In this document: positions 9,721 to 32,853 of the stretch, in pieces
Layout: every line of letters starts with the position of its first letter
Numbering within the stretch: position 1 is the first letter of the stretch
Virus record (IMG/VR): IMGVR_UViG_3300047317_000874
Location: 1-42,890 of that record
Length of the DNA stretch: 42,890 nucleotides
DNA from: a virus
Strand: one strand, 5' to 3'
Position numbers and translations under genes: made by a program
Notes under the pieces: generated by a model
Database searches by the model: none
What the model saw: the letters and a program-made list of their open reading frames with translations, nothing else
Told to the model about the DNA's origin: nothing

Positions 9721-11442
9721 CTAGTCGGTGTTGGTGTCCGGGTCTCGGCGTAGTCCGGCCCGTGGGCCGTACGCCTGTGTCACGATTTCGTTAGTCATCT
9801 TCTGAATCTCAGGCGCTGTGATGTTGCCGAGTTCGACACCACCAGGAAGCGTCACTGGATTCGGACCACCAGGCTGCGGGCCGATGGGCTTCCCATCTGC
9901 GTCAGTCTGGGGTGCAGGCGCCTCCGCCCCTTCAGGCGGCATTCCCGTCAGTTGCAGGATAGTAGAATCTATCTGCGCCTTTAGCATTCGCAGAGCGCCC
10001 TGCTGCTTGGCGTCCTCGATCTGCTCCTCGAAGATCTCCCGGACCTTCTCGTCGGGGAACTCCTCACCGAGATCGTGGAGGGCTCCGCGCATGGATTCCA
10101 AGCCCATCGACATCTTTGCCTGGATTTCGTTCAACTTGATGAGCGTGTCGACGGGGAGAGGCGCGGGCCATTCGCACTCGGTGAAGTACGCCATGGGGTC
10201 GAGAACGTCCACCATCGGGGGCTGGTCGTCCTTCATGATTCCCTCGGTGGAGGGGTCGTACAGCCGGGTCTCCGGCTCGAAAGTAAACAGCGTCTTGAGG
10301 ATCAGTTCGTTGATGCCCTGCAGGCCGACCGAGTACTGCATCTTCTTCTGGTCGTACCGAGACATCATCGGCCGGTACATGATGGCCAGGGCCACGCCGG
10401 AGGTGTTGCTCGCAGGCTGCATCTGACCGAGCGCCGTTTCCGGAACGCCGGTGATCTCGTGCATGGCGCGCTTGATCATTTCGAGGTACTGCAGCGGTCC
10501 GGCTAGGTCGACGCCGTTCTCCAGGTTGAAGACCTGCGCGTCCTTGGGTAGTCCACCCCACACCTTGCGAGGGCCCTTTTCGAGGTTGCTCGCTTTCGCG
10601 CCGGTGATGATGGTCACGGGCGCTGCGTGGTAATTGATGATGTCGCTGATGTCGGTGGCCTTCTCGTTGTACTCACGATTCAGGCTGACGATGTCTGCGA
10701 TGTCGGACAGGCCCCAGGGAGAGCCGCTGACCTGGCTGTTTGCGATGTGCTTGACGGGGATCACGCCCAGCGGATTCGGCCGGGAGTCGATCAACTCGTC
10801 GTTCAGGTACTCCTCGATCGTGGAATCCGTGAGGACCTCCACGTATGTGTAGACGCTTCGGGTTCCGTCTTCGCCGGTGGCCCAAAAGCGGTACTTGAGT
10901 TTGAACCGGATCAAGCGGTCGCGGTCGTGCGGGTGCCATTCCGGAAAGCAGAAGGCACTGTTGAGCGGAAGAATGCGTACGCGGCCTGGCTGCTCTTGTC
11001 CCAAGTCATCTACGAATGCCGGTGCGTATGCGACCTTCACGAAGCAGTCACCGGAGACGCCGCCTTGCTGGCCCATCTCCCAGAGCAACTGCTCCTTGCG
11101 GTTGTCCACCTCCCAGGCACGCTTCAAAAGCGCCGGGATGATGTGCTCGTACTGCTTCACGCTCTTGAAGTGGACGCCGCGTCCGAACGTGAAGTTGTTG
11201 ATGTAGTCGGCGAACGCTTTCACGTAGTTGAACGTGATCTGCGCTTCGCCTGCCTCGCGGCGGTATCCCCAGTGGTGACCCAGGTAGTATGCGAAGTTCT
11301 GGGAATAGCGGTTGAGGCGCGGGCCGTGTACTTCGAACTCCTCGTCGGCCAATTCGACCAGGCCGAGAGGCGAGATCGACACAGTGAGGTCGGATCCCGA
11401 AGCCCGCATGCTGGGGCTTGCGAACGAAATGGCACCGCTCAT
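9721..11442 (-). CDS. Portal protein
   Basis: The protein has 573 residues. It has the features of the SPP1/gp6-like portal group: 'YYLGHHWGYRREAGEAQITFNYVKAF' type N-terminal region near 52-76, 'IPVKHIANSQVSGSPWGLSDI' near 232-252, the 'EKATDISDIINY' helix, and 'EITGVPETALGQ' near 345-356 before the stem/crown helices. It forms the dodecameric DNA gate at one capsid vertex and docks the terminase. The C-terminus is Pro/Gly/Gln-rich. Gene order terminase-portal-scaffold-capsid is standard. Confidence 0.92.
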   Translation of the reverse strand: MSGAISFASPSMRASGSDLTVSISPLGLVELADEEFEVHGPRLNRYSQNFAYYLGHHWGYRREAGEAQITFNYVKAFADYINNFTFGRGVHFKSVKQYEHIIPALLKRAWEVDNRKEQLLWEMGQQGGVSGDCFVKVAYAPAFVDDLGQEQPGRVRILPLNSAFCFPEWHPHDRDRLIRFKLKYRFWATGEDGTRSVYTYVEVLTDSTIEEYLNDELIDSRPNPLGVIPVKHIANSQVSGSPWGLSDIADIVSLNREYNEKATDISDIINYHAAPVTIITGAKASNLEKGPRKVWGGLPKDAQVFNLENGVDLAGPLQYLEMIKRAMHEITGVPETALGQMQPASNTSGVALAIMYRPMMSRYDQKKMQYSVGLQGINELILKTLFTFEPETRLYDPSTEGIMKDDQPPMVDVLDPMAYFTECEWPAPLPVDTLIKLNEIQAKMSMGLESMRGALHDLGEEFPDEKVREIFEEQIEDAKQQGALRMLKAQIDSTILQLTGMPPEGAEAPAPQTDADGKPIGPQPGGPNPVTLPGGVELGNITAPEIQKMTNEIVTQAYGPRAGLRRDPDTNTD

Positions 11443-11459
11443 GGTTGAAGTACTCCGGC

Positions 11460-11750
11460 TCAGATCTCGATGACGTGAGTCGGCTTCATCTGCCGTGTCT
11501 CACGCTTGGCCTTGGCGCGGGTCTCGAAAGGCTCTCCGCGCTGGACGACGTTCCCGCTGGGCAGGACCTCGTGAAGGACGTACTGCCGCGTACGGTCGCC
11601 TTCCTCGTTCTCCACGGGAATTCCGCGTACGAGGTAACGGCCGTCGATGAGGGCCTTCCCTACCGTGTCGCCCTTTTCGAGGGGAAGGCGGGGAAGGACC
11701 TCATCGAGGGAGGCGCGCGGAGACCTGCGACGGTCGTTGAAGGCGACCAC
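11460..11750 (-). CDS. Small head-region protein, unknown
   Basis: The protein has 96 residues and starts at ATG 11750. It is basic at both ends and beta-rich between ('GKALIDGRYLVRGIPVENEEGDRTRQYVLHE' region). No domain is recognised. It lies between portal and another small unknown protein, so it is probably a minor virion or assembly factor. Confidence 0.65.
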   Translation of the reverse strand: MVAFNDRRRSPRASLDEVLPRLPLEKGDTVGKALIDGRYLVRGIPVENEEGDRTRQYVLHEVLPSGNVVQRGEPFETRAKAKRETRQMKPTHVIEI

Positions 11751-11755
11751 GGTGC

Positions 11756-12154
11756 TCAGTCCTCGACGACGGCCGGGGAGATGCGCTCGTACCGGCGGCC
11801 GTTGCGGTTGACCTGCTCGTAGGAGACCTCCGCGTAGTCGGCGAAGGAGCCCTGTGCGAACTCGCCCAGGTAGGTGGGCGCCTCGACCCAGGAGGCAGAG
11901 CCGACGTGAACGCGCTCGGCCATGGTCTCGGCCGGGCTCTTCTCGTAGACGTTCGCGTTGTGGTTGGGGCGGCCGGGCGCGGTGAGGTAGCCCTGCATGG
12001 CGCCCTTGGTGAACTCGTTGGGGACGTCCGTGTCGGTGGCGACACCCTCCTCGAACCGGAGAGGACCGCGCCGAACGGAGTTCTCGGCGAACTTGCGCTC
12101 GTAGACCGTGCCGACGCGCTCCTGTGTCTGCGGGTCGGGTGCGAGATTTGCCAT
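11756..12154 (-). CDS. Small head-region protein, unknown
   Basis: The protein has 132 residues and starts at ATG 12154 with AGAGGA upstream. It is rich in Asn, Glu and aromatic residues ('NHNANVYEKSPAETMAERVHVG'-type region). No domain is recognised. An operator-like repeat with two GGTAAC units lies just upstream, suggesting an extra promoter inside the late operon. Confidence 0.65.
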   Translation of the reverse strand: MANLAPDPQTQERVGTVYERKFAENSVRRGPLRFEEGVATDTDVPNEFTKGAMQGYLTAPGRPNHNANVYEKSPAETMAERVHVGSASWVEAPTYLGEFAQGSFADYAEVSYEQVNRNGRRYERISPAVVED

Positions 12155-12170
12155 TCTTGAATCCTCTTCC

Positions 12171-12190
12171 GGTAACCGGGTAACGGTATA
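12171..12190. promoter_or_regulatory. Tandem GGTAAC operator-like site
   Basis: CGGTAACC is followed directly by GGGTAACGGTAT, so two GGTAAC units lie head to tail. The second matches (in reverse) the ATACGGTAAC-type sites found at several other promoters. TTATAC, a possible -10 on the minus strand, overlaps the edge. It sits 17 bases upstream of the start codon at 12154. Confidence 0.45.
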
Positions 12191-12217
12191 AGCGTAGGAG
12201 GAAGCAAGAATTGATTG

Positions 12218-12646
12218 TTAACTAGGGATAGCCTCGGGCAGTGCGAATAGGCTCACCGGCGACACCGTGGCTGCGGGGACGGTGATGTCCCACTCCCGTC
12301 CGCCGGGGAAGCATTCCTTGACGTGCCAGGTGAACGCGGGACTGACTCCCGCCACATCGGTGGCCAGCAGGGAGACGGCCAGCAGGCCGTGGTCGATGCG
12401 CTCGTGGACCTCCTCCAGCCACACCACGGTGTCCCCGTCGACCACCCGGCGCGCGGAGGGGGTGAAGCGGACCATGGACCCGTTCAGGGTGCGGCTCTGG
12501 TCGTCCACGTACTTGGCGGTGATGTCCACCGAGGTGAATCCGGGCGGGAGGGTGATGGGCGGTGTCGTGGGCCCCGCCACGTTGGAGGGCTGCTGCGCGG
12601 TCCACCCGAGCGAGCCCCACTCGTCGCCGTACCAGTCGTTGGCCAT
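12218..12646 (-). CDS. Unknown protein between terminase and portal
   Basis: The protein has 142 residues and starts at ATG 12646, eight bases after the terminase stop. Aromatic-rich N-terminus ('DWYGDEWGSLGWTAQQ'), then a beta-rich body with 'FTSVDITAKYVDDQSRTLNG' and 'GDTVVWLEEVHERIDHG'. The fold looks like an immunoglobulin-like or carboxypeptidase-regulatory-like beta sandwich, as in some decoration proteins, but this is only an impression. Function unknown. Confidence 0.7.
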   Translation of the reverse strand: MANDWYGDEWGSLGWTAQQPSNVAGPTTPPITLPPGFTSVDITAKYVDDQSRTLNGSMVRFTPSARRVVDGDTVVWLEEVHERIDHGLLAVSLLATDVAGVSPAFTWHVKECFPGGREWDITVPAATVSPVSLFALPEAIPS

Positions 12647-12654
12647 GTCGTTCC

Positions 12655-14229
12655 TTACCGGTGGAATTGGGAGTTGCTGACTTCGACCTCGGGCATGGTG
12701 AACTCCTTGGTCAGCACGCACGCCAGCGCCAGGGAGTCGGCGTAGTCGTCGTGGGCGTCGGCCGCGCGGGGAGCCTGGGCCAGCACGTAGGGGCCCTCGA
12801 AGTTCTTCTCCAGGTCCTCCATCTGCTGACGGAAGCGCTTGTAGGACTTCAGGCGGCGTGTGTAGGCGTGCGCGGGCCAGGTCAGCAGGCCCCGGTCCAT
12901 CAGTTCCATCAAGTGTTTCCAGCGCCTGGACTGCTCGGGGCGCTGGGAGGACAGAGGCACGATGGTCAGGTCGGGCAGCAGGACCTTCAGGCGGGATATG
13001 ACGACGTCACCGACACCGCCCTCGTCGACCGCGATGGCCATCACGTTGTAGTTCCGCACGAACTCCACGATGCGGAAGTACTGGGCTTCCCAGTCCAGGC
13101 CACCGAGGTCCAGCCAGTTCAGGATGCGGTGCTCCATGAAGCCGTACTCATCCGGCCGGTCCCAGCGCACCCACACCGCCGTGACGATCGTGCTGTCCTG
13201 CTTGCGGGCGGGGTCGATGCCGATGACGACGGGCGTGGAGTGGTAGGCGTGGACGGCCTGCATGGACACATCGCCCAGCTCGTCCAGGCGCTCGGTGGTG
13301 GTGAACATGCCCTTGTCGAGCAGCCAGATCAACCTGTACGAGAGTTTGAACTCGTCGGAGTCCTCACCGATGCGCAGCAGTTCCTTCTTGACGAACTTGG
13401 CGTAGTTCTCGTTCCACTTCGAGACTTCCTTCCAGTCCGCGTCGAAGTGGTTCTGCCGTGCGCCGCGCCGGGTTGCCCCGCGCTTGTTGATCTGGATCTG
13501 GTTGTAGAAGACACCCTTTTCATAGGTCGGGGTGCCGGTGAAGACCATGGTCGCGTTGGTCGAGGCACCCATCGGGCCGATCGACTTGTTCACCATCTTC
13601 TCGTCGGCGCCCTGGCACTCGTCGATCAGGATCAGGTGGTAGGTGCGGCCTTCGATGGTGGCGCGGGGGTGACAGGTCTGCTTTCGCACCAGCGAGCCGG
13701 AGCGCTTGAGGGAGATGGAGCGGCCCTTGCCCTGCACGGTGTCGTCGATCTCGGGGTCGGCCATGATTTCCAGGGCGTGTTCACTGGTCAGGCGGGCCAC
13801 GATGCGGCCGTACAGGTTGTCGGCCTGCTCCTCGACGGGAGCGAAGGCGCCGACCCACAGGCCTTCCTTGAACTTGCCCAGCAGGTCGGGGAAGATCTTC
13901 GCCAGCCTGGGGAACATGATCATGCAGGCGGCGACGGTGTTGGCCACGGTCTCGGACTTGCCGGACTGTCGGGCGAACAGCGCGGTGAGCGTCGCGCCAT
14001 CGTTGATGATCAGCGACTCGATCAGGCGGGCCGCGAAGGGGCGCTGGTATCCGTAGAGCGGGTGGCCGGAGACCTCATCGACGATGAGGAGCATCTTCGC
14101 GACGATCTGGTCGACGAAGGCCTGGCTGGTCTGATCGAGCACCACTTCGGTGTCGAGCCGCGCCTGGCGCTCTTCTTCTGTCTCGTCGCTGACGTAATCG
14201 TCGTACTCGACGTCCTCCGCTGCAGACAC
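12655..14229 (-). CDS. terL: Terminase large subunit
   Basis: The protein has 524 residues and starts at GTG 14229. ATPase domain: Walker A ARQSGKSE (86-93), Walker B LILIDEC (199-205) and a coupling motif 'VFTGTPT' (229-235). Nuclease domain of the RNase H fold: acidic motifs GIDPARKQDS (337-346), AVDEGG (400-405) and 'HDDYADSLALA' (493-503). It cuts concatemeric DNA and pumps it into the capsid through the portal. A near-perfect hairpin lies three bases before the start and includes the likely ribosome-binding site. Confidence 0.96.
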   Translation of the reverse strand: MSAAEDVEYDDYVSDETEEERQARLDTEVVLDQTSQAFVDQIVAKMLLIVDEVSGHPLYGYQRPFAARLIESLIINDGATLTALFARQSGKSETVANTVAACMIMFPRLAKIFPDLLGKFKEGLWVGAFAPVEEQADNLYGRIVARLTSEHALEIMADPEIDDTVQGKGRSISLKRSGSLVRKQTCHPRATIEGRTYHLILIDECQGADEKMVNKSIGPMGASTNATMVFTGTPTYEKGVFYNQIQINKRGATRRGARQNHFDADWKEVSKWNENYAKFVKKELLRIGEDSDEFKLSYRLIWLLDKGMFTTTERLDELGDVSMQAVHAYHSTPVVIGIDPARKQDSTIVTAVWVRWDRPDEYGFMEHRILNWLDLGGLDWEAQYFRIVEFVRNYNVMAIAVDEGGVGDVVISRLKVLLPDLTIVPLSSQRPEQSRRWKHLMELMDRGLLTWPAHAYTRRLKSYKRFRQQMEDLEKNFEGPYVLAQAPRAADAHDDYADSLALACVLTKEFTMPEVEVSNSQFHR

Positions 14230-14231
14230 AA

Positions 14232-14272
14232 CTAACCCCGATCCCGGTTTTCTTCTCCGGAATCGAGGTTAG
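14232..14272. promoter_or_regulatory. Inverted repeat immediately before the terminase start
   Basis: The arms CTAACCCCGATCCCGG and CCGGAATCGAGGTTAG are separated by 9 bases. In the minus-strand RNA the hairpin contains the GGGG stretch that would be the ribosome-binding site of the terminase. It could be a translational switch or a packaging-initiation (pac/cos) site recognised by the neighbouring helix-turn-helix protein. Confidence 0.55.
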
Positions 14273-14296
14273 GTGTTTTCTGCTACGGGTTTATAA

Positions 14297-14572
14297 TTAC
14301 CGTTTCTTAGGCGTCTTCCTGATGTTTCGCAGCACAAGGATCTGCTGGACGCGCTGCCGGGTCATCCCGAACATCTCGCCCACCATCTCGTGGGTGTAGG
14401 CGCCCCTCTTGGACAGGTACACCGCTTCGATCAGCGCGTCGCGGGCCTCGGTGGAGGTCGCCGGGTAGTCCTGGGCGCAGTCGTCGTCGCAGTACACCTG
14501 TGTGTCCCGCTTGGCCACACCCAGGATCCTGCGGCAACCCCTGCAGCGGACGTCCACCAGTTCACGGAGCAT
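14297..14572 (-). CDS. Zinc-finger plus helix-turn-helix protein (small terminase candidate)
   Basis: The protein has 91 residues and starts at ATG 14572, inside the overlap AATG...TGA with the upstream gene. N-terminal zinc-ribbon-like Cys pairs C10/C13 and C28/C32. C-terminal helix-turn-helix of the sigma-70 region 4 type ('YTHEMVGEMFGMTRQRVQQIL', residues 59-79). A basic tail 'RKTPKKR' follows. Its place directly upstream of the large terminase makes a small terminase or pac-binding role plausible; a transcriptional regulator of the late operon is the alternative. Confidence 0.7.
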   Translation of the reverse strand: MLRELVDVRCRGCRRILGVAKRDTQVYCDDDCAQDYPATSTEARDALIEAVYLSKRGAYTHEMVGEMFGMTRQRVQQILVLRNIRKTPKKR

Positions 14573-14807
14573 TGCGTGCGCCTCCGCCGTTCTCGTGCCA
14601 GGCGCTCTCCAGCCCCTGCAGCACCTCGTCCAGCAGCCCGATCGGGAAGGTCATCCCCCTGCCGTACTCCTCCAGCGACGGCACGAACTCCCGCAGATCG
14701 GCGAACAGCCCGTCCTGCGGGCTCTGCACCGTCGAGACGTGGATCTCCTTGTCCGCCACGTACGCCACTCGCGCGTGGATCGTCCTCTGCTCGGCCAACA
14801 CGTCCAT
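14562..14807 (-). CDS. Small unknown protein at the head of the late operon
   Basis: The protein has 81 residues and starts at ATG 14807 behind a strong GGAGGAG site. It has an N-terminal beta strand segment ('RTIHARVAYVADKEIHV') and a helical C-terminal half ('GLLDEVLQGLESAWHENG'). No family is recognised. It is the first gene of the leftward late operon, just downstream of the divergent control region. Confidence 0.65.
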   Translation of the reverse strand: MDVLAEQRTIHARVAYVADKEIHVSTVQSPQDGLFADLREFVPSLEEYGRGMTFPIGLLDEVLQGLESAWHENGGGARNAP

Positions 14808-14854
14808 AACTCCTCCAATTTTCACTACTACGACCCTACTCCTACGCAAGCAAC

Positions 14855-14889
14855 TTGTCGAGAACGCTTGTCGAGCGTAGGGTGTCGAG
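14855..14889. promoter_or_regulatory. Three direct TGTCGAG repeats in the divergent control region
   Basis: TTGTCGAG occurs at 14855-14862 and 14868-14875, and GTGTCGAG at 14882-14889, spaced 13 and 14 bases. Flanking CTACGC (near 14842) and GCGTAG (14875-14880) form an inverted repeat around two of them. The array lies between the leftward late operon (start 14807) and the rightward gene at 15031, so it is a candidate operator for the late promoter. Confidence 0.5.
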
Positions 14890-15030
14890 TAGCCACAACG
14901 AAGAGCGTGGTCCCCATGTGCTGGGCACCGGAGCGGAGGTACCCTTCGCTTCATCCGGTCTGTGGGGGGCACGGGAAAAGGACCTCTCCGCTGCGGAGTA
15001 CCGACTGGCCTACGTGGACGGAGAAGACCG

Positions 15031-15261
15031 ATGGAAGACTGGAACCTGCAAAACGGCATACAGCGAGCGACCGGCTCCGAGGAGCTGGATGCCCTGCAGC
15101 AGCGCGAGCTGCGATCCGAGCAGATGCGGTTCTACCAGAACGCCAACGCCCCCGAGTGGCACGGCATCGGCGGCAGGCAAGGCATCAAGGAAGCCGCCAT
15201 CGGCATCGGGATCCTTCTCGTCATCGGACTGATCTTCAAGTACGTGCTCGGCATCGGCTAG
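15031..15261 (+). CDS. Small membrane-anchored protein
   Basis: The protein has 76 residues and starts at ATG 15031 with GGAGAAG upstream. The first two thirds are charged and helical ('ALQQRELRSEQMRFYQN'), and a single C-terminal transmembrane segment follows ('AAIGIGILLVIGLIFKYVLGI', about 54-74). It is monocistronic with a strong terminator 15 bases after the stop. It could be a tail-anchored lysis or exclusion protein; nothing specific is recognised. Confidence 0.65.
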   Translation: MEDWNLQNGIQRATGSEELDALQQRELRSEQMRFYQNANAPEWHGIGGRQGIKEAAIGIGILLVIGLIFKYVLGIG

Positions 15262-15276
15262 ACCCCCGAACGACAC

Positions 15277-15310
15277 AAGGCCCCACCGGCAGATGGACCG
15301 GTGGGGCCTT
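15277..15310. terminator. Bidirectional terminator
   Basis: A perfect 13-base stem AAGGCCCCACCGG/CCGGTGGGGCCTT with an 8-base loop, between the plus-strand membrane protein gene and the end of the tyrosine recombinase gene. Confidence 0.85.
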
Positions 15311-15353
15311 CGTCATGCAGAGACAGTTACACCCAGGCGTCACTATCTCTGCT

Positions 15354-16430
15354 TCACTGCGCGCGGCGGAGCTGCACGACGTTGTCCTGCGAGACCATCG
15401 CGGTCAAGAACGGCTTGCCCTTCATGGTCAGGTCCCTCCGCTTGCGCTCACTGGACAGCCCCAGGTACCTCTCGGTCGTGGCCATGTTCGAGTGGTGCAG
15501 CAACGCCGACACCGTCCTCAGCGCCGCGTCGTAGCCCAGCTCGGTGGACATCGAGTCGAAGTACGCGCGGGCGACCGCCCGGCGCAGAGTGTGCGTCCCC
15601 TCGTAGCGGGTCGGCAGCCCCAGCGCCTCCAGCGCTCCCTTGACGATCTTCTCCGTGCGCTGCACCGGCCGGTCGGAGTGCCACACGTACGGCGTGCGCT
15701 CCAGCACCCGGCGCCCTGTCGTCTCGTCCACGTAGTTGCGGGCGATCAGGTTCCCCGACCGCGCCGGAAACAGGTAGTCCTCATCGCGCAGCGGACGGCC
15801 CAGGAGCTGCTGGTACTCGATCATCCACGCGCGCAGCTCCCTCTCCAGGTCGGCCGTCAGCGGCATCTCGTCCTCCTCCCGCGTCTTGATCACCGTGACG
15901 AACAGCTCCGAGCGCGCGAAGTCGACGTCCCCGACCTTCATGCCGGTGATCTCACTCGCCCGGCAGGCGGTGTTGATGGCGGTCGCCAGGTACGCACGGT
16001 GCATGCGGCACTGCGCCTGATCCAGCAGCATCAGCAGGATCGACGGGGCGGGCTGCTGCCGCTTACGACGGGGCTCCGGCAGCGCCTCCACGCCGCTGAG
16101 GTAGTTGTCCAGGTGCGTGTACCCCTCGGCCTTGCAGAAGGCGAAGAACACCTTCAGCCGCTTGCGGTATGCGTTGTGCGTGCCCGGCCCGACCGGCTCG
16201 CGCACAGGCTGCCCCTTGATGCGGGTGGTGTGGGAGTCCATCAGGCCGCCGGGGCCGTAGAAGAAGTCCCGCACGTTGTGGGAGGTGAGCTGCTCGAAGC
16301 TGGGGTCCTGCAGGTGCGCGGTGAATCGCGGCAGCAGCGTGCGGTCCACCCGCATGGTGTTGTCGGCCTTGCCGGAGCGCTGCCGGATGGCCAGGTATTT
16401 CGCGACGGCGCTGCTCAGTGCGATGCTCAC
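15354..16430 (-). CDS. Tyrosine recombinase (integrase)
   Basis: The protein has 358 residues and starts at GTG 16430 behind AGGAGG. An N-terminal core-binding domain (about 1-120) is followed by the catalytic domain with the full set of residues: R157 (ACRASEITGMKVGDV), K182 in the beta hairpin (VIKTREED), H280-x-x-R283 (THTLRRA), H312/H313 (LLHHSN) and the nucleophile Y322 (ERYLGL). It catalyses site-specific strand exchange, probably phage integration and excision or dimer resolution. It is downstream of a small gene by 9 bases and diverges from the large serine recombinase. Confidence 0.92.
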   Translation of the reverse strand: MSIALSSAVAKYLAIRQRSGKADNTMRVDRTLLPRFTAHLQDPSFEQLTSHNVRDFFYGPGGLMDSHTTRIKGQPVREPVGPGTHNAYRKRLKVFFAFCKAEGYTHLDNYLSGVEALPEPRRKRQQPAPSILLMLLDQAQCRMHRAYLATAINTACRASEITGMKVGDVDFARSELFVTVIKTREEDEMPLTADLERELRAWMIEYQQLLGRPLRDEDYLFPARSGNLIARNYVDETTGRRVLERTPYVWHSDRPVQRTEKIVKGALEALGLPTRYEGTHTLRRAVARAYFDSMSTELGYDAALRTVSALLHHSNMATTERYLGLSSERKRRDLTMKGKPFLTAMVSQDNVVQLRRAQ

Positions 16431-16439
16431 GCGTCCTCC

Positions 16440-16775
16440 TCAGCGCCGGTGGTCAAACAGGATCTCGCCGTCAGAGAGCATTGATTCGATGTTCAGGTTC
16501 GCTGTCGCCAGACCTCCGAGACCTTGGCCACGCAGGGTGTCCGTGGCAACCACGAGATGCGGACGGAAGATGACCTCGCCGTGGACGAGCACGTGGCTGC
16601 GCTGGCTGCCGTAGCGGAACGGATGCTGCTGCACCCCGGGCAGCTTGGCCGCTCCCACGAAGCCGACCAGGCCCGGGTCAGCGGTGTCCTGGATGAACGC
16701 CCACCCTCCCGAGCGTCGGGCGTTCTCACCCAGCAGGAAGCGGATCTGCGCGTCGGTCTCGTCGTTGCTGAACAT
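16440..16775 (-). CDS. Small unknown protein upstream of the tyrosine recombinase
   Basis: The protein has 111 residues and starts at ATG 16775 behind AGGAGGACGAC. A beta-rich protein with 'WAFIQDTADPGLVGFVGAAKLPG' type segments and 'RSHVLVHGEVIFRPHLVVAT'. It is co-transcribed with the recombinase, so a regulatory or excision role is possible, but it has no recognisable helix-turn-helix. Function unknown. Confidence 0.6.
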   Translation of the reverse strand: MFSNDETDAQIRFLLGENARRSGGWAFIQDTADPGLVGFVGAAKLPGVQQHPFRYGSQRSHVLVHGEVIFRPHLVVATDTLRGQGLGGLATANLNIESMLSDGEILFDHRR

Positions 16776-16882
16776 GTCGTCCTCCTGGAGTGGGGCTGGT
16801 GCGCCCACAGTACTCAGGACAAGTTATCTCCGCAACTAGCTTGCATGAACAGATGTAGCGGTATCTCTGAATCGGTACTACG

Positions 16883-17071
16883 ATGCCGGTCATGACGAAC
16901 CTCATCACAGCGCCACTCAGGACCCTGCCCCACAACCCAACGACCACCTGGGAACTGAAGCCCGGCCCGGTCAACCCCACCAACTACCGCAGGCTGCTGG
17001 AAATCCTCTTCGCCCCCGACACCGAGACCGAGGCCATCGACCCCGACCGGCTTCATACCCAGGCCGCCTGA
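16883..17071 (+). CDS. Small unknown protein upstream of the serine recombinase
   Basis: The protein has 62 residues if ATG 16883 is used, 59 from ATG 16892. It contains 'PTNYRRLLEILFAPDTETEA'. No family is recognised. It ends with a CTTCATACC motif read as Leu-His-Thr four codons before the stop. A strong hairpin separates it from the serine recombinase. No clear ribosome-binding site is seen, so leaderless translation is possible. Confidence 0.45.
   Translation: MPVMTNLITAPLRTLPHNPTTTWELKPGPVNPTNYRRLLEILFAPDTETEAIDPDRLHTQAA
17051..17059 (+). repeat. CTTCATACC motif copy on the plus strand
   Basis: Exact copy, and the only one found on the plus strand. It lies in a plus-strand gene and so keeps the rule that the motif follows the coding strand. 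Read as Leu-His-Thr. Confidence 0.75.
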
Positions 17072-17107
17072 CGGCCGGGTCCCCAGAAGTTAAGATCGGG
17101 CAACGAA

Positions 17108-17145
17108 ACGACCCCGCCAGAGTTTTGCGGCCATGGCGGGGTCGT
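17108..17145. terminator. Hairpin before the serine recombinase
   Basis: The 11-base arms ACGACCCCGCC and GGCGGGGTCGT are separated by 16 bases, 25 bases upstream of the recombinase start. It may terminate the small upstream gene or act on the recombinase leader. Confidence 0.6.
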
Positions 17146-17170
17146 CCTGGCCGATCACGAAGGGATCGAC

Positions 17171-19225
17171 ATGACGCAGCTTACTGCCCCACCCTCCTTC
17201 CAGATGCCACGCATCGAATCCTTGGTCAAGCGAGTCGCCCTGTACTGCCGCGTCTCCACCAAGGAGCAGGCCCTCGGCTACAGCATGGACGGCCAGGAAG
17301 CCGAAGGACTCGCGCACATCGACCGCGACCCCTACCTGCGCCTGTTCAAGGTCTACCGCGACCCCGGAGTCTCCGGCACCAAGGTCAGCCGCCCCGACCT
17401 CGACGAACTGCGCGAGGACATCCGCCGGGGCTTCATCGACGTCGTCCTAATCAAGGCCATTGACCGCATCGGCCGCTCCGAGCGCGTCCTGATGCCCTGG
17501 TTCTGGATGCTGGAAGAGGCCGGTGTCCACACCATCTCCCTCACCCAGCAGATCGACACCACCTCGGGCAACGGCAAGTTCACCCTGAGCATCTTCATCG
17601 CCATGGCCCAGGCCGAGTGGAACGCCATCCGCCAGCGCACCGTCGATGGACTCAACGCCAAGGCAGCGCAAGGCGGATGGGTCTGCGGCGTCCCGCCCTA
17701 CGGATACACCCTCGAAGGACGCGGCCAGCGCGGCGGATCCCGCGTCGTGCCCTACCAGCCGGAAATCAAGATCCTGCTCAAGGCCGCCGACTACCTTCTC
17801 GTCAAGGGCTACTCCCCCGAACGCGCCGCAGCCGCCCTCAACGCTGACGGCTACCTCACCCGCAGCGGAGTCCCCTGGACCGGCGCCAACCTCAAGCTCC
17901 GCATCATGGCCATCCTCGACCAGTACGTCACCTTCCGGAACATCGAGGTGCGCAAGGGCACCCCCGTTCAGGTCGGCCCCGACGGAACGCCGAAGTTCGG
18001 CCCCGCCCAGAAGATCTCGCTGCCGCCGATCCTTCCGCAGACCACCCGCGACGGCCTCAAAGCCTACTTCTCCACCCGCACCCGCCCGCGCGGAAACCGC
18101 GAGCACCTGTACTACCTTTCCGGGCGCATCATCGGAACCTGCACCGGCCGCCTGGTCGGAAAGCGCCGCACCACCACCGAGACGTGGATGTACGGCTGCG
18201 AAGGCCACGGAGAGGGGCGCCGAAAGAGCACCAAGGGGTGCAAGGCCTACCGCGCCGAGCTGCTCGAAGCGCACGTCTGGAAAGGCGTCGTCTCGATCCT
18301 CAGCAACAGGGCCATGCTCGAAAAGGCGGCCGACGACTGGATCGGCACCCTACCCGTCAACGGCGACGACTACCGCGACCGAATCAACGAACTCGACCGC
18401 AAGCTCGCCGACAATGAGCGCATTCGCACCCAGACGCTCGTGCAGTACGCAACCGCCGGAGTCGACCCCGTCGTCGTGAAAGCCGCACAGGACAAGTTCG
18501 AGGACGACGCCAGGGAACTCCAGTCCCAGCGCGCCATTGCGCAAACGCTGCTGTCGGAACTGGAAACAGCCCTCGACCGCCGCGCCCAGATCGTGGCTCT
18601 CGCGGAGCTTTCCCCCGACCGGCTGCTGCGCCTGGCGCCCCACGTCCGCGCACAGGTCGTCGAAATGCTCGACCTGCAAATCGAGATCACGGCCGATGCC
18701 AAGCACATGCGGCTGGCCCACCCCTGCAAGATCGAGGCGTACTTCCGCGAGCACGGAAAGCTGGTGCCCGACACGCTCACCAACGAGCAGTGGGACAAGC
18801 TGGTGGCCGCTGTCCCCGCACTGTCTCCGCACAACCGCAAGATCTCTCTGCGCAAGGTGCTGGAGGCGGGCTTCCACAAGGTCCGCGAGAACCTGCGCTG
18901 GAAGCAGCTCCCGGCCGCCTACGGCTCGGAGGTGTCCCTGCGGGCGGTCTGGCTGGAGTGGCTGAACGGCGGCGTCCTGGACAGCGTTGTGGAGGCGCTG
19001 GGGCAGTACCCGGGCACACCGGTGGAGGACCGCGAGCTGCCGGAGATGAGGGTCACGGGCGTGCTGGAGGGGACGCTGGCCACGATGATGGGTCAGACGG
19101 CAGTCAACAACCTGCTTGCACCTACTGCGACAGTCTCCTCGGAGGCAATTCAGGAACGTGCAAGCACATCGGTAACGCGCTCTGTCCCGCGATTCTCTTT
19201 GGTTCTGGACCGCCTGGCGGCCTAG
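17171..19225 (+). CDS. Large serine recombinase (phage integrase type)
   Basis: The protein has 684 residues and starts at ATG 17171 behind AAGGGATCG. The N-terminal resolvase domain has the catalytic serine S29 in 'VALYCRVSTKEQ', 'YRDPGVSGTKVSRPDLDEL', and 'AIDRIGRSERVLM'. This is followed by the recombinase domain ('GGWVCGVPPYGYTLEG') and a Cys-containing ribbon ('GTCTGRL', 'YGCEGHGEG', 'KGCKAYRAE'). One cysteine of the usual first CxxC pair is missing. A coiled-coil segment lies near 410-460. Large serine integrases of this size join attP and attB in actinophages. Having it next to a tyrosine recombinase is unusual. Confidence 0.92.
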   Translation: MTQLTAPPSFQMPRIESLVKRVALYCRVSTKEQALGYSMDGQEAEGLAHIDRDPYLRLFKVYRDPGVSGTKVSRPDLDELREDIRRGFIDVVLIKAIDRIGRSERVLMPWFWMLEEAGVHTISLTQQIDTTSGNGKFTLSIFIAMAQAEWNAIRQRTVDGLNAKAAQGGWVCGVPPYGYTLEGRGQRGGSRVVPYQPEIKILLKAADYLLVKGYSPERAAAALNADGYLTRSGVPWTGANLKLRIMAILDQYVTFRNIEVRKGTPVQVGPDGTPKFGPAQKISLPPILPQTTRDGLKAYFSTRTRPRGNREHLYYLSGRIIGTCTGRLVGKRRTTTETWMYGCEGHGEGRRKSTKGCKAYRAELLEAHVWKGVVSILSNRAMLEKAADDWIGTLPVNGDDYRDRINELDRKLADNERIRTQTLVQYATAGVDPVVVKAAQDKFEDDARELQSQRAIAQTLLSELETALDRRAQIVALAELSPDRLLRLAPHVRAQVVEMLDLQIEITADAKHMRLAHPCKIEAYFREHGKLVPDTLTNEQWDKLVAAVPALSPHNRKISLRKVLEAGFHKVRENLRWKQLPAAYGSEVSLRAVWLEWLNGGVLDSVVEALGQYPGTPVEDRELPEMRVTGVLEGTLATMMGQTAVNNLLAPTATVSSEAIQERASTSVTRSVPRFSLVLDRLAA

Positions 19226-19250
19226 TATCGCAGTCCGGTCGGCGCCGGGT

Positions 19251-19286
19251 GGTGCCTTCTCTCCTGACTCCAGGAGGGGAGGCACC
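19251..19286. terminator. Terminator between convergent genes
   Basis: A 15-base stem (GGTGCCT...AGGCACC outer arms, two G-U pairs inside) with a 6-base loop sits between the serine recombinase and the leftward gene ending at 19294. Confidence 0.85.
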
Positions 19287-19293
19287 TCGTCGT

Positions 19294-19563
19294 TCAGCCC
19301 TCGCGGCGAATGAGGACGTCGAGCACGCCCAGCAGGCCCTGTGCGCCGCTGCGGGCCTCCAGCAGGCTCTCCGGGGTTGCCTGCTTGCGGTAGTCGTCCA
19401 GGGCCTTGGCCAGGCCGCTGCCGACGCTGTCGGCCCAGTCGAGGACGTCGACCGTGGGCAGCCGGTCCAGCCGCTTGGCCGCCTTGGCTCGGGTGGGGTC
19501 GGTCGGAGTGGCCGCGCCGTCAGCGCCCTGCCACAGTCCCTTCAGAAAAGCCCAAGCGCGCAC
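19294..19563 (-). CDS. Small helical protein, unknown
   Basis: The protein has 89 residues and starts at ATG 19563. All-helical prediction: 'RAKAAKRLDRLPTVDVLDWADSVGSGLAKAL' region then 'LLEARSGAQGLLGVLDVLIRREG'. It overlaps the end of the small upstream gene by 22 bases. No family is recognised. Confidence 0.6.
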   Translation of the reverse strand: MRAWAFLKGLWQGADGAATPTDPTRAKAAKRLDRLPTVDVLDWADSVGSGLAKALDDYRKQATPESLLEARSGAQGLLGVLDVLIRREG

Positions 19564-19658
19564 AGGACCTCGTACTCCTCGTCTACGTCGTTCGTGTTGT
19601 CGGCCACGACCCGGCGGGTCGCTTCCTTCTCTTCCTCGGTGTTCTCAGAGGTAGGCAC
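19542..19658 (-). CDS. Very small acidic protein
   Basis: The protein has 38 residues and starts at GTG 19658 behind GAGGAAA, overlapping the upstream gene's stop. It is very acidic (SENTEEEKE, NDVDEEYEVL). The start is chosen because it has the ribosome-binding site and the usual phage-style overlap. Function unknown. Confidence 0.5.
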   Translation of the reverse strand: MPTSENTEEEKEATRRVVADNTNDVDEEYEVLCALGLF

Positions 19659-19953
19659 TGAGGGTTTCCTCCGATACCTCGTCGAAACGCTTGGTGTCCC
19701 GGATGACCTCGGTGGAGAGGGCATTGCCGTATCCCTGGAGCGCGACGTAGAGTGCGTCGCTTTCCGTCCGGCCGGTTAGGCGCCAGCGGCCGAAGACGAG
19801 ACCCTTCCCGGGCCATATCTTGATGATGAGGGAGCGGGCGTGCCGATAGGGCGGCTCGATCTCGTCGGTTGGCGCTTGATGGATGAGCGGGGATCCGGGT
19901 GCGAGGTTTATGGGGTGTACGAAAAAGACCCCGATGTCATGAGTATTGGGCAT
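19645..19953 (-). CDS. Small unknown protein
   Basis: The protein has 102 residues from ATG 19953, though the ribosome-binding site is weak and the true start may be internal. Contains 'RHARSLIIKIWPGKGLVFGRW' and 'DALYVALQGYGNALSTEV'. No domain is recognised. It is the first of three overlapping leftward genes. Confidence 0.55.
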   Translation of the reverse strand: MPNTHDIGVFFVHPINLAPGSPLIHQAPTDEIEPPYRHARSLIIKIWPGKGLVFGRWRLTGRTESDALYVALQGYGNALSTEVIRDTKRFDEVSEETLSAYL

Positions 19954-19992
19954 GACATGGAGCCTATTCGCCTGGCCGCGCGCTTTGGTAAA

Positions 19993-20475
19993 TCAGGAGA
20001 CGCCGGTGGGTTCGTCGAGGTCGTGTTCTGGTGCATAGGCGAAGTTGTTGAGGGTGCGGTTGATGGCCCGGCCTGGGCTCTTTACTCGCTTGAAGTTCCG
20101 CCAGACGTTCGGCGGGACGTTGTAGTAGCCGTAGACCTGTCCGTTGCGGAATCGCACCCGTAGCGTCTGAGAATCCCTGTCGTAGCCTGCGGCAAGGGTT
20201 CTCGGGCGCGGCGGATTGATCGAGGGGGTCGGCTGGTAGGGGAGCAGGTCGAAGTCGTCGCCGTCCCGGGCCAGTTGAATGGCGGCGGCGAGTTCCTGGG
20301 ACATGACGCGGCGGGAGCCTGCTCGGGCTGGGGTGTTGGGGGCGCTGGCGGGGGGCTGTGGGGGCGGTGTGGAGCCTCCGAGCATGATGCGGTCGTAGGC
20401 GTTGCCTGCGCGTCCGTTGGTGCCTGCTGTGTTGACCCTGGGGATCTCAGGGCCGCCTCGTCGGCGTGTTGCCAC
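19993..20475 (-). CDS. KTSC-domain protein
   Basis: The protein has 160 residues and starts at ATG 20475 behind AAGGAGACC. The N-terminal 90 residues are Pro/Ala-rich and probably disordered. The C-terminal part (about 93-150) matches the KTSC domain: 'AAGYDRDSQTLRVRFRNG', 'VYGYYNVPPNVW', 'SPGRAINRTLNNF'. KTSC domains are associated with nucleic-acid-related proteins, but their function is not defined. An intrinsic terminator lies between its start and the upstream gene, so it has its own promoter or depends on read-through. Confidence 0.8.
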   Translation of the reverse strand: MATRRRGGPEIPRVNTAGTNGRAGNAYDRIMLGGSTPPPQPPASAPNTPARAGSRRVMSQELAAAIQLARDGDDFDLLPYQPTPSINPPRPRTLAAGYDRDSQTLRVRFRNGQVYGYYNVPPNVWRNFKRVKSPGRAINRTLNNFAYAPEHDLDEPTGVS

Positions 20476-20489
20476 TTGGGTCTCCTTAC

Positions 20490-20521
20490 AAAAACGGCCC
20501 CGTCCGGGTGGAGGGGGCCGT
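20490..20521 (-). terminator. Intrinsic terminator
   Basis: On the minus strand the stem ACGGCCCC/GGGGCCGT is followed by five T residues, a classic intrinsic terminator for the gene at 20550-20960. Confidence 0.88.
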
Positions 20522-20549
20522 CGGTCCGGGTGATCAGTCCCGGGGTGGA

Positions 20550-20960
20550 TCAGGCGGGGACGTTGGCCACGGTGGAAGCGGTCGCCGGGGCGTTGGTGGC
20601 GCCGGGGGCGGTCGCGGTGCCCGCGTTGCGGGTGCCTTCGTAGGTGGCGGTGCCGGTCAGGCGGTCGTCGGCCTCGGGGCCACCGGGGTGCGCGGCTGCC
20701 TCCTCCGGGGTCAGGACGACCAGTCCGGCGTTGGAGGTCGCCGGGTCGATGCCGATGGCGCGCTGGGCGGCGGGGTCGGGCAACTGGGCGTGGACGAAGA
20801 CCTGGCCGGGGATGGCGTCCACGTTCTCGTACTTGGTCTCGTGCTGTACGGTCCAGCCGAGGTTGGGGTGGTCCCAGTCGGACGAGCGGCCGGGGACGAC
20901 GTCGGGCAGGGCGGCCGGGGTCTCGCCGACCGGGGCCTCGGTGTTCTTTGCAGCAGCCAC
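20550..20960 (-). CDS. Unknown protein, own transcription unit
   Basis: The protein has 136 residues and starts at GTG 20960 behind AGAAGAGG. The first 60 residues include 'DWDHPNLGWTVQHETKYENV' and 'GQVFVHAQLPD'. The last 45 are Ala/Thr/Gly-rich and probably disordered. With a palindrome in the promoter and a strong terminator it looks like an independently expressed gene, possibly a virion protein. No family is recognised. Confidence 0.65.
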   Translation of the reverse strand: MAAAKNTEAPVGETPAALPDVVPGRSSDWDHPNLGWTVQHETKYENVDAIPGQVFVHAQLPDPAAQRAIGIDPATSNAGLVVLTPEEAAAHPGGPEADDRLTGTATYEGTRNAGTATAPGATNAPATASTVANVPA

Positions 20961-20992
20961 TGTGGTTCCTCTTCTTGTGGGTTACCGGTTTT

Positions 20993-21007
20993 GCTGGACT
21001 GTCCAGC
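20993..21007. promoter_or_regulatory. 15-base palindrome in promoter region
   Basis: GCTGGACTGTCCAGC is a perfect palindrome around a central T. It lies 33 bases upstream of the start at 20960, next to a GTTACCGG motif (20981-20988). TGGACA inside it could be a -35 for leftward transcription. It is a likely operator. The rest of 20961-21123 shows no convincing gene. Confidence 0.45.
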
Positions 21008-21123
21008 CCGGCTCTTGTACCGGACCCTCTTCGTCCTCTTCACGATTATGAGGGCAGTCAGGTCCGGAATAGACATGCTGACCCTCTTGGAAGATGCAAC
21101 TCGACACGTACATGGGTGTTCTC

Positions 21124-21312
21124 CTACAGGGAACTGCCTGCCTCGGTATTCGAGCCTAGCGGCATTCCTCCGGGGGTTTCCCATGGCTGGCTTCCGGCGA
21201 ATTGGTCGGCGGAGAGCACGGAGTCGCGGAGTGGGGCGCCTGCGATGGTGAAGGCGTAGCCTCCGGCGTAGGCGTCGCCGGTGGCGGGGATGGGTTCAGG
21301 CGTCTTGTTCAC
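21124..21312 (-). CDS. Small unknown protein
   Basis: The protein has 62 residues and starts at GTG 21312 behind GAGAAGG, overlapping the upstream gene by 17 bases. It is rich in Gly, Pro, Ala and Ser, with no domain seen. The overlap and ribosome-binding site support translation. Confidence 0.5.
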   Translation of the reverse strand: MNKTPEPIPATGDAYAGGYAFTIAGAPLRDSVLSADQFAGSQPWETPGGMPLGSNTEAGSSL

Positions 21313-21502
21313 GGTTGCCTTCTCGGGCGGCGTCGAACCCGGAGCGCAGGCGGGTGAGGCGGGTCTTGTAGGTGCGCAGGACGGCCATGTGCTCGCAGGC
21401 CGTTTCGACGAGTTCGCCGACTTCGGCGACGCAGCGGTCGAGGAGGTCTTCGATGTCGGCGATGTCGTCGTGGTCGCGTGTCTGGGGAAGCAGTGGCATC
21501 AC
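21296..21502 (-). CDS. Small coiled-coil protein
   Basis: The protein has 68 residues and starts at GTG 21502 or the next codon ATG, behind GGAGGAG. The middle is a charged helix ('DIADIEDLLDRCVAEVGELVETACEHMAVL'-type) that probably forms a coiled coil. It overlaps the stop of the upstream membrane protein, so it may work with it. Function unknown. Confidence 0.6.
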   Translation of the reverse strand: MMPLLPQTRDHDDIADIEDLLDRCVAEVGELVETACEHMAVLRTYKTRLTRLRSGFDAAREGNREQDA

Positions 21503-21843
21503 GAACTCCTCCGTCTGCGCGGCCGTGGGGTTCCGTCGCTCTGGAAGAGGTCCAGGACGTCTTCGAGGACGTCGGTGACGGTTGCCTGGACGGCGATGCT
21601 GTCGCGGGTGGCCTGGACGAGGTCACGGGCTGTGGTGACCATCTGTTCGGCGAGGGGTACGACGCGTTCGGTCAGTGCTCGCAGGCGTCTGTTCTCGGCG
21701 ACTTCTCGCCGGTAGGCCTTGCCGGAGACGACGACTTCGGTGACGAAGACGGCGAAGATGAACGCAGCGATCGGCCCCAGGACGAGTGGACTGTCTACGG
21801 ACAGGCCGCCCGACCCGGAGGCCGATGCGAGGAAAACAAACAT
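21499..21843 (-). CDS. Membrane protein with coiled coil (holin candidate)
   Basis: The protein has 114 residues and starts at ATG 21843. One transmembrane segment near 18-40 ('SPLVLGPIAAFIFAVFVTEVVVSG') is followed by a long coiled coil (about 45-100) and a basic tail (PRPRRRRSS). Class III-like holins and spanin-like proteins can look like this, but nothing proves lysis. The start codon lies inside a 12-base inverted repeat, so expression is probably tightly controlled. Confidence 0.6.
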   Translation of the reverse strand: MFVFLASASGSGGLSVDSPLVLGPIAAFIFAVFVTEVVVSGKAYRREVAENRRLRALTERVVPLAEQMVTTARDLVQATRDSIAVQATVTDVLEDVLDLFQSDGTPRPRRRRSS

Positions 21844-25762: not shown

Positions 25763-25888
25763 GGATGCCCCCTAACGACGCGTCATGCAAGTGCATGGAC
25801 TCGGCAAGTGCGCGAAAGAGTGAAGGCTGTCCCGGACCATGAGGTGGTGGCAGACTGTGGGGAAGCACTCGCAACCAGGGAGGTCACG

Positions 25889-26752
25889 TTGGCAGACAGC
25901 CCAACGGTGCTGAAGCGACGGCTCGGCGCCGAGCTGCGCAAGATGCGCCGTGCTCGGAACCTGACCACCGCGCAGGTAGCGAAGGATCTGGGCTGGTCCG
26001 AGTCCAAGGTCAGCCGTATCGAGACGGGCAAGTCTCCGCTGGCTGACCAGGATGCCAAACTTCTGCTGGCGCAGTACGGAGTTGACGATTCCGAGGAGGT
26101 TCGGCAGTTCATCGGCCTCACGCGGAAGAGCCGACAGAACGGCTGGTGGCACTCCTTCGGCGACACGCTTCCGGAGTGGTTCAAGCCCTATCTCGGATTC
26201 GAAGCGGACGCGGCGTCCATCCTGACCTACCAGACCGAGCTGGTCCCCGGACTTCTCCAGACCGAGGGCTACGCAGAAGCTGTGATCCGGTCCATGAACC
26301 CTGGGATGTCCAGCGACGAAATCGACGCCCGAGCAAGTGCGCGAGTCCAACGCCAGGACATCCTAAGTTCCGACGCCCCGCCGAGACTCTGGGCGATCAT
26401 CAACGAGGCGGTCGTCCGTAGGGTCGTCGGTTCGCCACGGATCATGCATGAGCAGTTGAAGGCCTTGGCAGACTTCGCGGAGACGCTCCCGAACGTCACT
26501 GTCCAGGTGCTTCCCTTCGACGCCGGGGCCCATGCGGCGCTGGGATACAGCTTTTCCTACCTGACCTTCTCGGACGTACCCGGCTCCATCGCCTACTCGG
26601 AAGGACCCACCAGCGCGACCTACTTGGACAAAGATTCAGACCTGAGCCGCCACGAGGACATCTTCCAGCGGCTGGTGGCCGCCGCAGAGCGGCCCGAGAA
26701 ATCCGTAGACATGATCAGAAACATCGCAGAGGAATACAACCATGCAGGGTAA
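25889..26752 (+). CDS. Helix-turn-helix (XRE) regulator with DUF5753 domain
   Basis: The protein has 287 residues with TTG 25889 as start, chosen for the GGGAGG six bases upstream and because the family normally starts just before 'RRRLGAELR'. The XRE helix-turn-helix lies near 15-65 ('TTAQVAKDLGWSESKVSRIETGKS'). DUF5753 follows: 'ILTYQTELVPGLLQTEGYAEAVIR', 'INEAVVRRVVGSPRIMHEQL', 'TVQVLPFDAGAH', and a closing 'HEDIFQRLVAAA'. Members form pairs with DUF397 proteins and control development and other traits in Streptomyces. Here it overlaps the DUF397 gene by 11 bases. Confidence 0.92.
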   Translation: MADSPTVLKRRLGAELRKMRRARNLTTAQVAKDLGWSESKVSRIETGKSPLADQDAKLLLAQYGVDDSEEVRQFIGLTRKSRQNGWWHSFGDTLPEWFKPYLGFEADAASILTYQTELVPGLLQTEGYAEAVIRSMNPGMSSDEIDARASARVQRQDILSSDAPPRLWAIINEAVVRRVVGSPRIMHEQLKALADFAETLPNVTVQVLPFDAGAHAALGYSFSYLTFSDVPGSIAYSEGPTSATYLDKDSDLSRHEDIFQRLVAAAERPEKSVDMIRNIAEEYNHAG

Positions 26753-31815: not shown

Positions 31816-31816
31816 G

Positions 31817-31889
31817 CTCCCCGACCTGGATTCGAACCAGGAACCAACGGATTAACAGTCCGCTACTCTGCCGGTTGAGCTATCGGGGA
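31817..31889 (-). tRNA. tRNA-Asn (anticodon GTT)
   Basis: A full cloverleaf can be drawn: acceptor TCCCCGA/TCGGGGA, D arm, anticodon stem GCGGA/TCCGT with loop CTGTTAA, T arm CCTGG-TTCGAAT-CCAGG, discriminator G. CCA is not encoded. Confidence 0.95.
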
Positions 31890-31894
31890 TTGCG

Positions 31895-31975
31895 TACCCA
31901 AGGTGGGGATCGAACCCACACGCCTTTCGGCGCCGCTTTTGAGGCGGCTGACTGTGCCAATTCGTCTACTCGGGC
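31895..31975 (-). tRNA. tRNA-Leu (anticodon CAA)
   Basis: Class II cloverleaf: acceptor GCCCGAG/CTTGGGT (two G-U pairs), anticodon stem GCCGC/GCGGC with loop CTCAAAA, variable arm GCC-GAAA-GGC, T arm GTGGG-TTCGATC-CCCAC, discriminator A. It reads UUG, a rare codon in a high-GC host. It lies five bases from tRNA-Asn. Confidence 0.93.
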
Positions 31976-31979
31976 ATGT

Positions 31980-32021
31980 GCCGCGCAAACCCCTCGGTCG
32001 AGTCGGGTCGATTCGCGCGGC
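31980..32021 (-). terminator. Hairpin between the cell-wall hydrolase and the tRNAs
   Basis: GCCGCGC/GCGCGGC arms with a 28-base loop, between the stop of the hydrolase (32034) and tRNA-Leu. Confidence 0.45.
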
Positions 32022-32033
32022 CTCGGATGAAGC

Positions 32034-32852: not shown

Positions 32853-32853
32853 G

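Follow-up and report, generated by a model that had tools for sequence, protein, structure and literature searches.

The DNA analysed here, referred to as the window, is the 42,890-base IMG/VR virus record IMGVR_UViG_3300047317_000874, which has no end repeat and encodes a contractile-tailed phage (tail sheath, baseplate hub, major head protein, portal and the large terminase subunit TerL) together with an RNA ligase, a polynucleotide kinase and an exonuclease. Within it, a tyrosine recombinase gene and a large serine recombinase (LSR) gene diverge from a short region that contains a small open reading frame (ORF) (Table 1). We found that the two recombinases are carried together throughout a phage family, that the LSR occupies a slot that is exchanged wholesale while its tyrosine partner stays in place, and that the LSR of a related provirus is, on strong evidence, the enzyme that integrated it.

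The tyrosine recombinase has the R-K-H-R-H-Y active site of its class. The residues R157, K182, H280, R283, H312, H313 and Y322, listed in the original prediction as signs of an intact enzyme, are unchanged in 17/17 aligned family members; of the two adjacent histidines, we take H313 rather than H312 to be the catalytic one from its spacing to the tyrosine. Pfam detected core-binding signals (residues 17-57 and 82-108) and the catalytic domain only, and found no N-terminal arm-binding domain of the kind that marks lambda-type integrases. The best NCBIfam models are XerC, XerA and XerD, with all scores below cut-off (48.3 bits against 335.15 for XerC), so that the enzyme does not qualify as a XerC or XerD equivalog, and the closest solved sequence is XerD (E 6e-4). 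In being Xer/Cre-like and having no arm-binding domain, it resembles Cre of phage P1. A fold model was too poor (mean predicted local distance difference test score 51.8) and was not used. Across relatives, the enzyme is 68-100% identical to the window copy.

The LSR carries an N-terminal resolvase domain whose nucleophilic serine, S29, is unchanged in 9/9 aligned LSRs, and it too appears intact, as had been predicted. The accompanying statement that all of its domains are present holds for the resolvase domain; PF07508 (15.2 bits, cut-off 21.1) and PF13408 (18.7 bits, cut-off 25.3) are matched in the expected order at scores below cut-off, and the first of the usual four zinc-ribbon cysteines is missing in an alignment judged by eye. 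Among the other LSRs, PF13408 exceeds its cut-off in L009, L019 and L008, and PF07508 in L019 and L008 (labels of this form denote individual loci). The LSR also has a C-terminal DUF4096 domain, overlooked in the original prediction, which scores above cut-off in 6/10 other LSRs scanned.

Two small genes had been placed in the region between the recombinases (16776-17170). The 59-residue ORF on the plus strand lies inside this region, and the 110-residue ORF on the minus strand lies between it and the tyrosine gene. The latter is absent from the aligned relatives, including the close relative L004; relatives align up to 16440, and L004 resumes at 16778. The 59-residue ORF, which is divergent from the tyrosine promoter in every LSR type examined, starts a few bases past a promoter-like TAGTACGG and is therefore probably leaderless. 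Its start region is alike across LSR types (LHT/LNT) and its C-terminal part tracks the LSR class; judged from its sequence, it could be a partner of the LSR, for instance a directionality factor. Upstream of the tyrosine gene, most of the 21 aligned sequences contain a CTTGACG-N3/4-TA motif, whose hexamer-like parts are spaced too closely for an ordinary sigma-70 promoter.

Table 1. Features of the recombinase locus and two further genes of the window
Feature	Position	Strand	Basis or remark
Tyrosine recombinase, 358 amino acids, Xer-like	15354..16430	-	PF00589 E 7.2e-15, above cut-off
110-residue ORF between tyrosine gene and promoter region	16440..16772	-	no Pfam or PHROG match
Divergent promoter region, common to the family	16773..16891		alignment of 21 upstream regions
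Small ORF, 59 amino acids	16892..17071	+	no family match better than E 0.2
LSR, 684 amino acids, type A of the swappable slot, likely integrase	17171..19225	+	PF00239 E 1.4e-31; phrog_95 integrase E 4.8e-72
DUF4096 (PF13340), LSR residues 536-606	18776..18988	+	E 1.7e-9
Predicted phage attachment site (attP) in LSR 3' coding end	19113..19166		54-bp dyad, 9-bp perfect arms, 17/27 pairs, centre about 19139/19140
Last three LSR codons, Leu-Ala-Ala, ssrA-like	19214..19222	+	predicted lost on integration; putative degron
Conserved gene beyond attP	19294..19563	-	homologue is the other end of provirus L053
TerL	12655..14229	-	phrog_2 E 1.7e-27
HTH_31/DUF5753 regulator, candidate lysogeny regulator	25808..26752	+	PF19054 E 1.7e-57, PF13560 E 3.4e-15

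Pairing of the two genes and exchange of the serine recombinase

We collected 40 contigs with the tyrosine gene, 30 from a query with the tyrosine enzyme and 10 via LSR queries, the latter being a biased set. A contig was considered assessable if its sequence upstream of the tyrosine gene contained an LSR or extended for 750 bases or more, and six of the 40, with 164 bases or fewer there, were excluded. An LSR lies 302-741 bases from the tyrosine gene in all 34 assessable contigs; counting the contigs from the tyrosine query alone, the pairing holds in 24/24. As to the comparison of relatives suggested with the original prediction, relatives carry both enzymes, and having both is the rule in this phage family rather than an accident.

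The LSRs in this position fall into at least five types, A (the window), B, C (with subtypes about 48% alike), D and E. Types A, B and C are mutually 28-35% identical, D and E about 50%, and D/E to A-C 22-29%; types D and E lie on the same strand as the tyrosine gene and types A-C on the opposite one. The LSR types differ even between phages that are otherwise very close. L019 (type C) and L016 (type B) share a 99% identical tyrosine enzyme and flanks of 94.5-95.6% nucleotide identity with LSRs of 32% identity. L009 (type B) and L027 (type D) likewise have 99% identical tyrosine enzymes and adjoining flanks of 94.8-98.3%, and their LSRs are 23% identical and on opposite strands. The tyrosine and serine enzymes are 95% and 25% identical, respectively, between L004 (type E) and the window, and 97% and 25% between L008 (type C) and L012 (type D). 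The exchanged segment runs from a point just beyond the LSR to one about 50 bases short of the tyrosine gene. The slot is exchanged wholesale, along with at least the C-terminal part of the small neighbouring gene. The LSR loci outside the phage family that were compared are without the tyrosine enzyme, which therefore does not travel with the LSR. The earlier suggestion that one of the two enzymes was acquired recently is correct insofar as the serine enzyme comes from exchange between phages; the pair itself, present in 34/34, is the family norm.

We then considered how the slot is exchanged. Five of nine sequences share no 10-mer between the cassette borders. Isolated border 10-mers, direct or inverted, occur at inconsistent places in the remaining sequences (among L027, L019, L012, L016 and the window) and were taken as chance. 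A separate inserted element with its own flanking repeats, named in the original prediction as the finding that would overturn it, is thus not seen in these nine sequences. The pattern suggests that whole cassettes are replaced through homologous recombination in the shared flanks. It should be noted that a 9,768-base contig (L002/L003, IMGVR_UViG_3300046462_000987) is 99.9% identical to window positions 11898-21665, so that the type A cassette is seen in two records, possibly of one virus.

A provirus junction and the predicted attachment site of the window

Comparison with an integrated relative, which had been proposed as the way to find attachment sites, was made with L053/G001, an IMG/VR provirus record of 105,651 bp with a tyrosine gene (68.5% identity) and a type B LSR (84%); its record number, 2799112265, follows what we take to be the style of isolate-genome numbering. 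The first bases of the record are the LSR 3' end, and its last ones the stop codon of the gene homologous to the window gene at 19294-19563. Because these two features are adjacent in free phages, the phage circle was opened between them in L053. The L053 LSR matches the free-phage sequence up to CCAGG and then diverges, and the junction consists of attP-left, CCAGG and the right half of a host attachment site (attB). A 22-mer across this junction, with up to two mismatches, is found in 214 of 392 Streptomyces genomes; a reversed-pattern control gave five matches, counted by hand from the result table. In 28/30 fetched host loci the site falls in one and the same coding context, MTW, and the one host gene scanned encodes a TAP-like alpha/beta hydrolase (PF08386 E 4.1e-28).

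The geometry of the junction points to the LSR. When the L053 junction is aligned with the host sites and with six type B sequences from free phages, only CCAGG is common to them at the change point, and in the type B locus L056 CCAGG is the centre of a 62-bp dyad. This length falls within the 42-69 bp, with inverted repeats, of published serine integrase attP sites (PMC4068962). The type B attP lies within the LSR coding end, 56 bases ahead of where the stop codon ends. A core of CCAGG only, centred in such a dyad, is the geometry expected of a serine integrase, and the opening of L053 at the LSR 3' end next to a host half-site indicates that the LSR integrates the type B phage through an attP inside its own coding end. 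The evidence that the LSR is the integrase for type B is therefore strong, and by parallel the LSR of the window, of type A, is likely the integrase of its phage, in which case the same attachment geometry would apply.

In the window, the 54-bp dyad in the LSR 3' coding end is the predicted attP. Its main support is the similar arrangement in type B and in two loci of type C, L062 (9-bp arms) and L066 (12-bp arms), whose dyads lie at the LSR 3' end; in L054, L060 and L079 the scan detected no dyad at that place, and in L065 just an unrelated one. The type D locus L027 has a 56-bp dyad with 12-bp arms (8027-8082) at the same end of the slot, ahead of the probable start of the LSR, and no dyad with 8-bp arms was found exactly at this position in L012 and L015. 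The constant order of the locus would be the gene at 19294, attP, LSR, small gene, promoter and tyrosine gene. In types A-C, integration would cut off the LSR end (17 codons in type B and a predicted 28 or so in the window), with host-encoded residues replacing it.

LSR relatives were also found at 28 loci in reference genome contigs, of which the closest is a broken copy of 68% identity, the others being more distant. This copy, in Streptomyces sp. SID12488 (L133, 10001-11596), is a type-B-like LSR with gaps, 68% identical over its main segment and apparently a remnant, which no tyrosine gene or other window-family gene adjoins; the gene preceding it is presumably urease-like. Streptomyces sp. 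AcH 505 (L135) and Actinacidiphila rubida (L134) encode, at about 10000-13400, DUF4096-bearing LSRs 35-37% identical to that of the window. The LSR frame continues to 758 residues in L134, and in L135 the gene next to the LSR encodes the sigma factor WhiG (NCBIfam equivalog), so that whiG may be a target of the DUF4096-bearing clade. In L067 (provirus record 2767802072) and L070 (phage Sentinel), the LSR C-termini diverge after a common STKGI, as if attP were intragenic, and the placement of attP within the integrase gene may be a property of this whole clade.

Roles considered for the tyrosine recombinase

The window TerL is 61-64% identical in amino acid sequence to that of six Streptomyces phage records (BRock twice, Alone3, LuckySocke, pSt2308 and GiJojo) with genomes of 112-116 kb, placing these virulent phages in the same TerL lineage as the window. 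The contigs of window relatives in IMG/VR reach 110 kb, and the window is therefore a fragment, of a temperate Streptomyces-type myovirus genome of about 105-110 kb related to the virulent BRock and Alone3. BRock is reported to be a virulent myovirus that has no lysogeny or recombination genes and carries a 221-bp direct terminal repeat (PMC7453282). Unlike the window family, BRock and Alone3 have no tyrosine or serine recombinase in the inspected stretch beside TerL. A tblastn search of 50,697 phage records with the tyrosine enzyme returned a single match of 28% identity, outside the BRock/Alone3 group. In reference genome contigs, 54 pattern matches obtained with the tyrosine alignment encode no family relative, and one of 392 Streptomyces genomes has a distant relative (35%). 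A viral scan with the L053 enzyme added only two new contigs, L216 and L231, both too short to show the slot.

The tyrosine enzyme is thus absent where lysogeny is absent, which argues against a general packaging role, and we have moderate confidence that it is an accessory of lysogeny. Its separate job would most likely be circularisation or resolution of the phage DNA, and on balance we favour a Cre-like join. If the genome is linear with short terminal repeats, as in BRock, a circular form would be required before a serine integrase could insert it; the fixed, Xer-like enzyme would circularise or resolve the phage DNA, which the serine integrase would then insert.

A different division, in which both enzymes are integrases with different targets, the tyrosine enzyme being a fixed back-up or alternative and the serine enzyme tracking the host, is unlikely. 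It would accommodate the intact and conserved state of the tyrosine enzyme as well as LSR exchange, which would alter the target, and the sole provirus speaks against it by sitting at the LSR site, as does the lack of a detectable arm-binding domain. When 14230-17180 was searched against 121 Streptomyces genomes, only scattered matches were obtained (best E 1.9e-5), with none recurrent at attB quality, although a short attachment core would escape this search; one 33-base stretch recurs at 88% in Streptomyces genomes, within a coding region. Integration by the tyrosine enzyme at a tRNA or other host site near its gene was rejected on these scattered matches, and the alignment downstream of the gene revealed terminators and no attachment-like site. 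Pairs of one tyrosine and one serine integrase have been predicted in the Staphylococcus aureus phage TEM126 and in Gordonia phages, with their roles called unclear (PMC6507118). In contrast to those cases, the pair described here spans the family, with a constant and an exchanged partner, and the integrating one is identified by a junction.

We give similarly low credence to a function of the tyrosine enzyme in replication or packaging, through resolution of dimers or concatemers, regardless of lysogeny. The XerC, XerA and XerD models and the XerD structure nearest to it would suit such a function, and P1 and other plasmid prophages have Cre/Xer enzymes that are believed to resolve dimers (PMC8026635). 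The virulent relatives, however, manage without the enzyme, as judged from the phage-record search and the region beside TerL in Alone3 and BRock. In addition, a ParA-type gene (PF13614) was found in 0/11 family records, several of them partial, whereas the control gave 14/14; a plasmid-prophage lifestyle was rejected on this result, and the phage, in contrast to P1 and other plasmid prophages, integrates.

It is very improbable that exchange of the LSR cassettes is the work of the tyrosine enzyme. The enzyme does sit, fixed, at one border of the exchanged segment, but the nine sequences have no consistently placed repeat common to both borders, and a scan for lox/dif-like sites between 6900 and 29000 yielded 58 imperfect palindromes of which none is both conserved and intergenic, those conserved in six relatives falling in long reading frames such as TerL. 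Least probable of all is the proposal that the tyrosine enzyme integrates and the serine enzyme inverts or resolves DNA, which has nothing in its favour beyond both enzymes being intact, is contradicted for type B by the junction at the LSR 3' end with its host half-site, and sits poorly with an integrase as the best PHROG match of the LSR. The original prediction, which had offered integration by one enzyme and inversion or resolution by the other, was right in assigning them different jobs; it is the serine enzyme that integrates, as judged from one provirus, and nothing supports inversion by the LSR.

The integrase tail and the proposed lysogeny module

We compared the LSR ends that integration would remove. 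Of the 20 loci with a phage-form LSR of types A-C whose 3' end is closed (near-identical loci counted, four open-ended ones excluded), 18 end in LAA, LAV or MAA. The same kind of ending ([LM]A[AV]) occurs in 1/38 window genes, namely the LSR itself (one further gene left out), and in 0/134 host ORFs. The LSR of provirus L053 ends in RSPRS, and the tags of transfer-messenger RNA end in LAA in all three Streptomyces-group genomes tested. Nearly all phage-borne forms resemble the host ssrA tag in this respect, and most simply this would mean a short-lived integrase in the free phage. There is a precedent in mycobacteriophage BPs, whose attP is located within the gene for the repressor: upon integration the repressor loses an ssrA-like tag and becomes stable, and a C-terminal signal for proteolysis is also present on the BPs integrase (PMC4557955). 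Judging by the type B junction and the tails, the LSR gene would likewise combine an attP with an ssrA-like end; the gene split by integration is the repressor in BPs and the serine integrase here. By analogy, the tail would act as a degron, and the integrase would persist longer when made from the prophage than when made by the free phage.

Taken together, we interpret the locus, with a probability of roughly 0.8, as the lysogeny module of a temperate myovirus, with a serine integrase in a swappable slot, an intragenic attP, a swap of the integrase tail and a fixed tyrosine partner. Several observations weigh against this interpretation. There is one provirus junction only, of type B, whose record has no attR and just 18 bases of host DNA beyond the core, and the type A LSR of the window is just 32-35% identical to type B. 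The dyad of the window belongs to a class with 10 members in 42.9 kb and is weak when taken alone, the chance of finding such a dyad in the last 250 LSR bases being roughly 6% by estimate. Two of the 20 loci, L063 and L066, end in AAS, and the bases around and after the stop codon are alike in types B and C, so that the LAA ending was possibly inherited with the backbone rather than selected. Finally, neither the host matches nor the palindrome scan revealed a recombination site of the tyrosine enzyme.

A more specific and tentative extension is that the integrase edits itself: an ssrA-like degron beyond attP would be swapped for host codons to give a stable prophage form, with the tyrosine enzyme preparing the DNA. 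Excision would then restore the unstable integrase, biasing each state, and the slot would let phages trade integrases together with their target genes, within a two-recombinase, two-step route to lysogeny.

The LSRs of the Streptomyces phages SV1, phiJoe and phiHau3 share with the present one the resolvase domain and membership in PHROG_95. In such phages, an attP dyad of about 42-69 bp lies beside the int gene, downstream of it in SV1 and upstream in phiJoe (PMC4068962, PMC5311408), whereas here it lies inside the LSR 3' coding end. DUF4096, appended to the LSR here, is sub-threshold in the phiHau3 and Sentinel LSRs. We found no paper in the open-access literature on an LSR combined with DUF4096, and in the same literature only one paper, on a synthetic counter, matched an attP within a serine integrase gene. 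Judged from the open-access literature only, the division of labour and the LSR tail swap appear new.

Elsewhere in the window, four tRNA genes (Asn, Leu, Phe and Pro) lie at 31816-33061 on the minus strand, on both sides of a LysM/tail-like gene (32034-32690), and at 36037-38562, also on the minus strand, the polynucleotide kinase gene adjoins an RNA ligase/tail-fibre attachment gene, possibly forming an RNA repair pair.

These results make the roles of dual integrases testable, given near-identical phage pairs with different LSRs, a provirus junction and a host target present in many Streptomyces. The slot also offers Streptomyces genetics a supply of serine integrases whose attP sites can be read. 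If it is true that the tail swap alters the stability of the integrase, the principle known from BPs, in which integration rewrites a C-terminus, would be extended from a repressor to an integrase.

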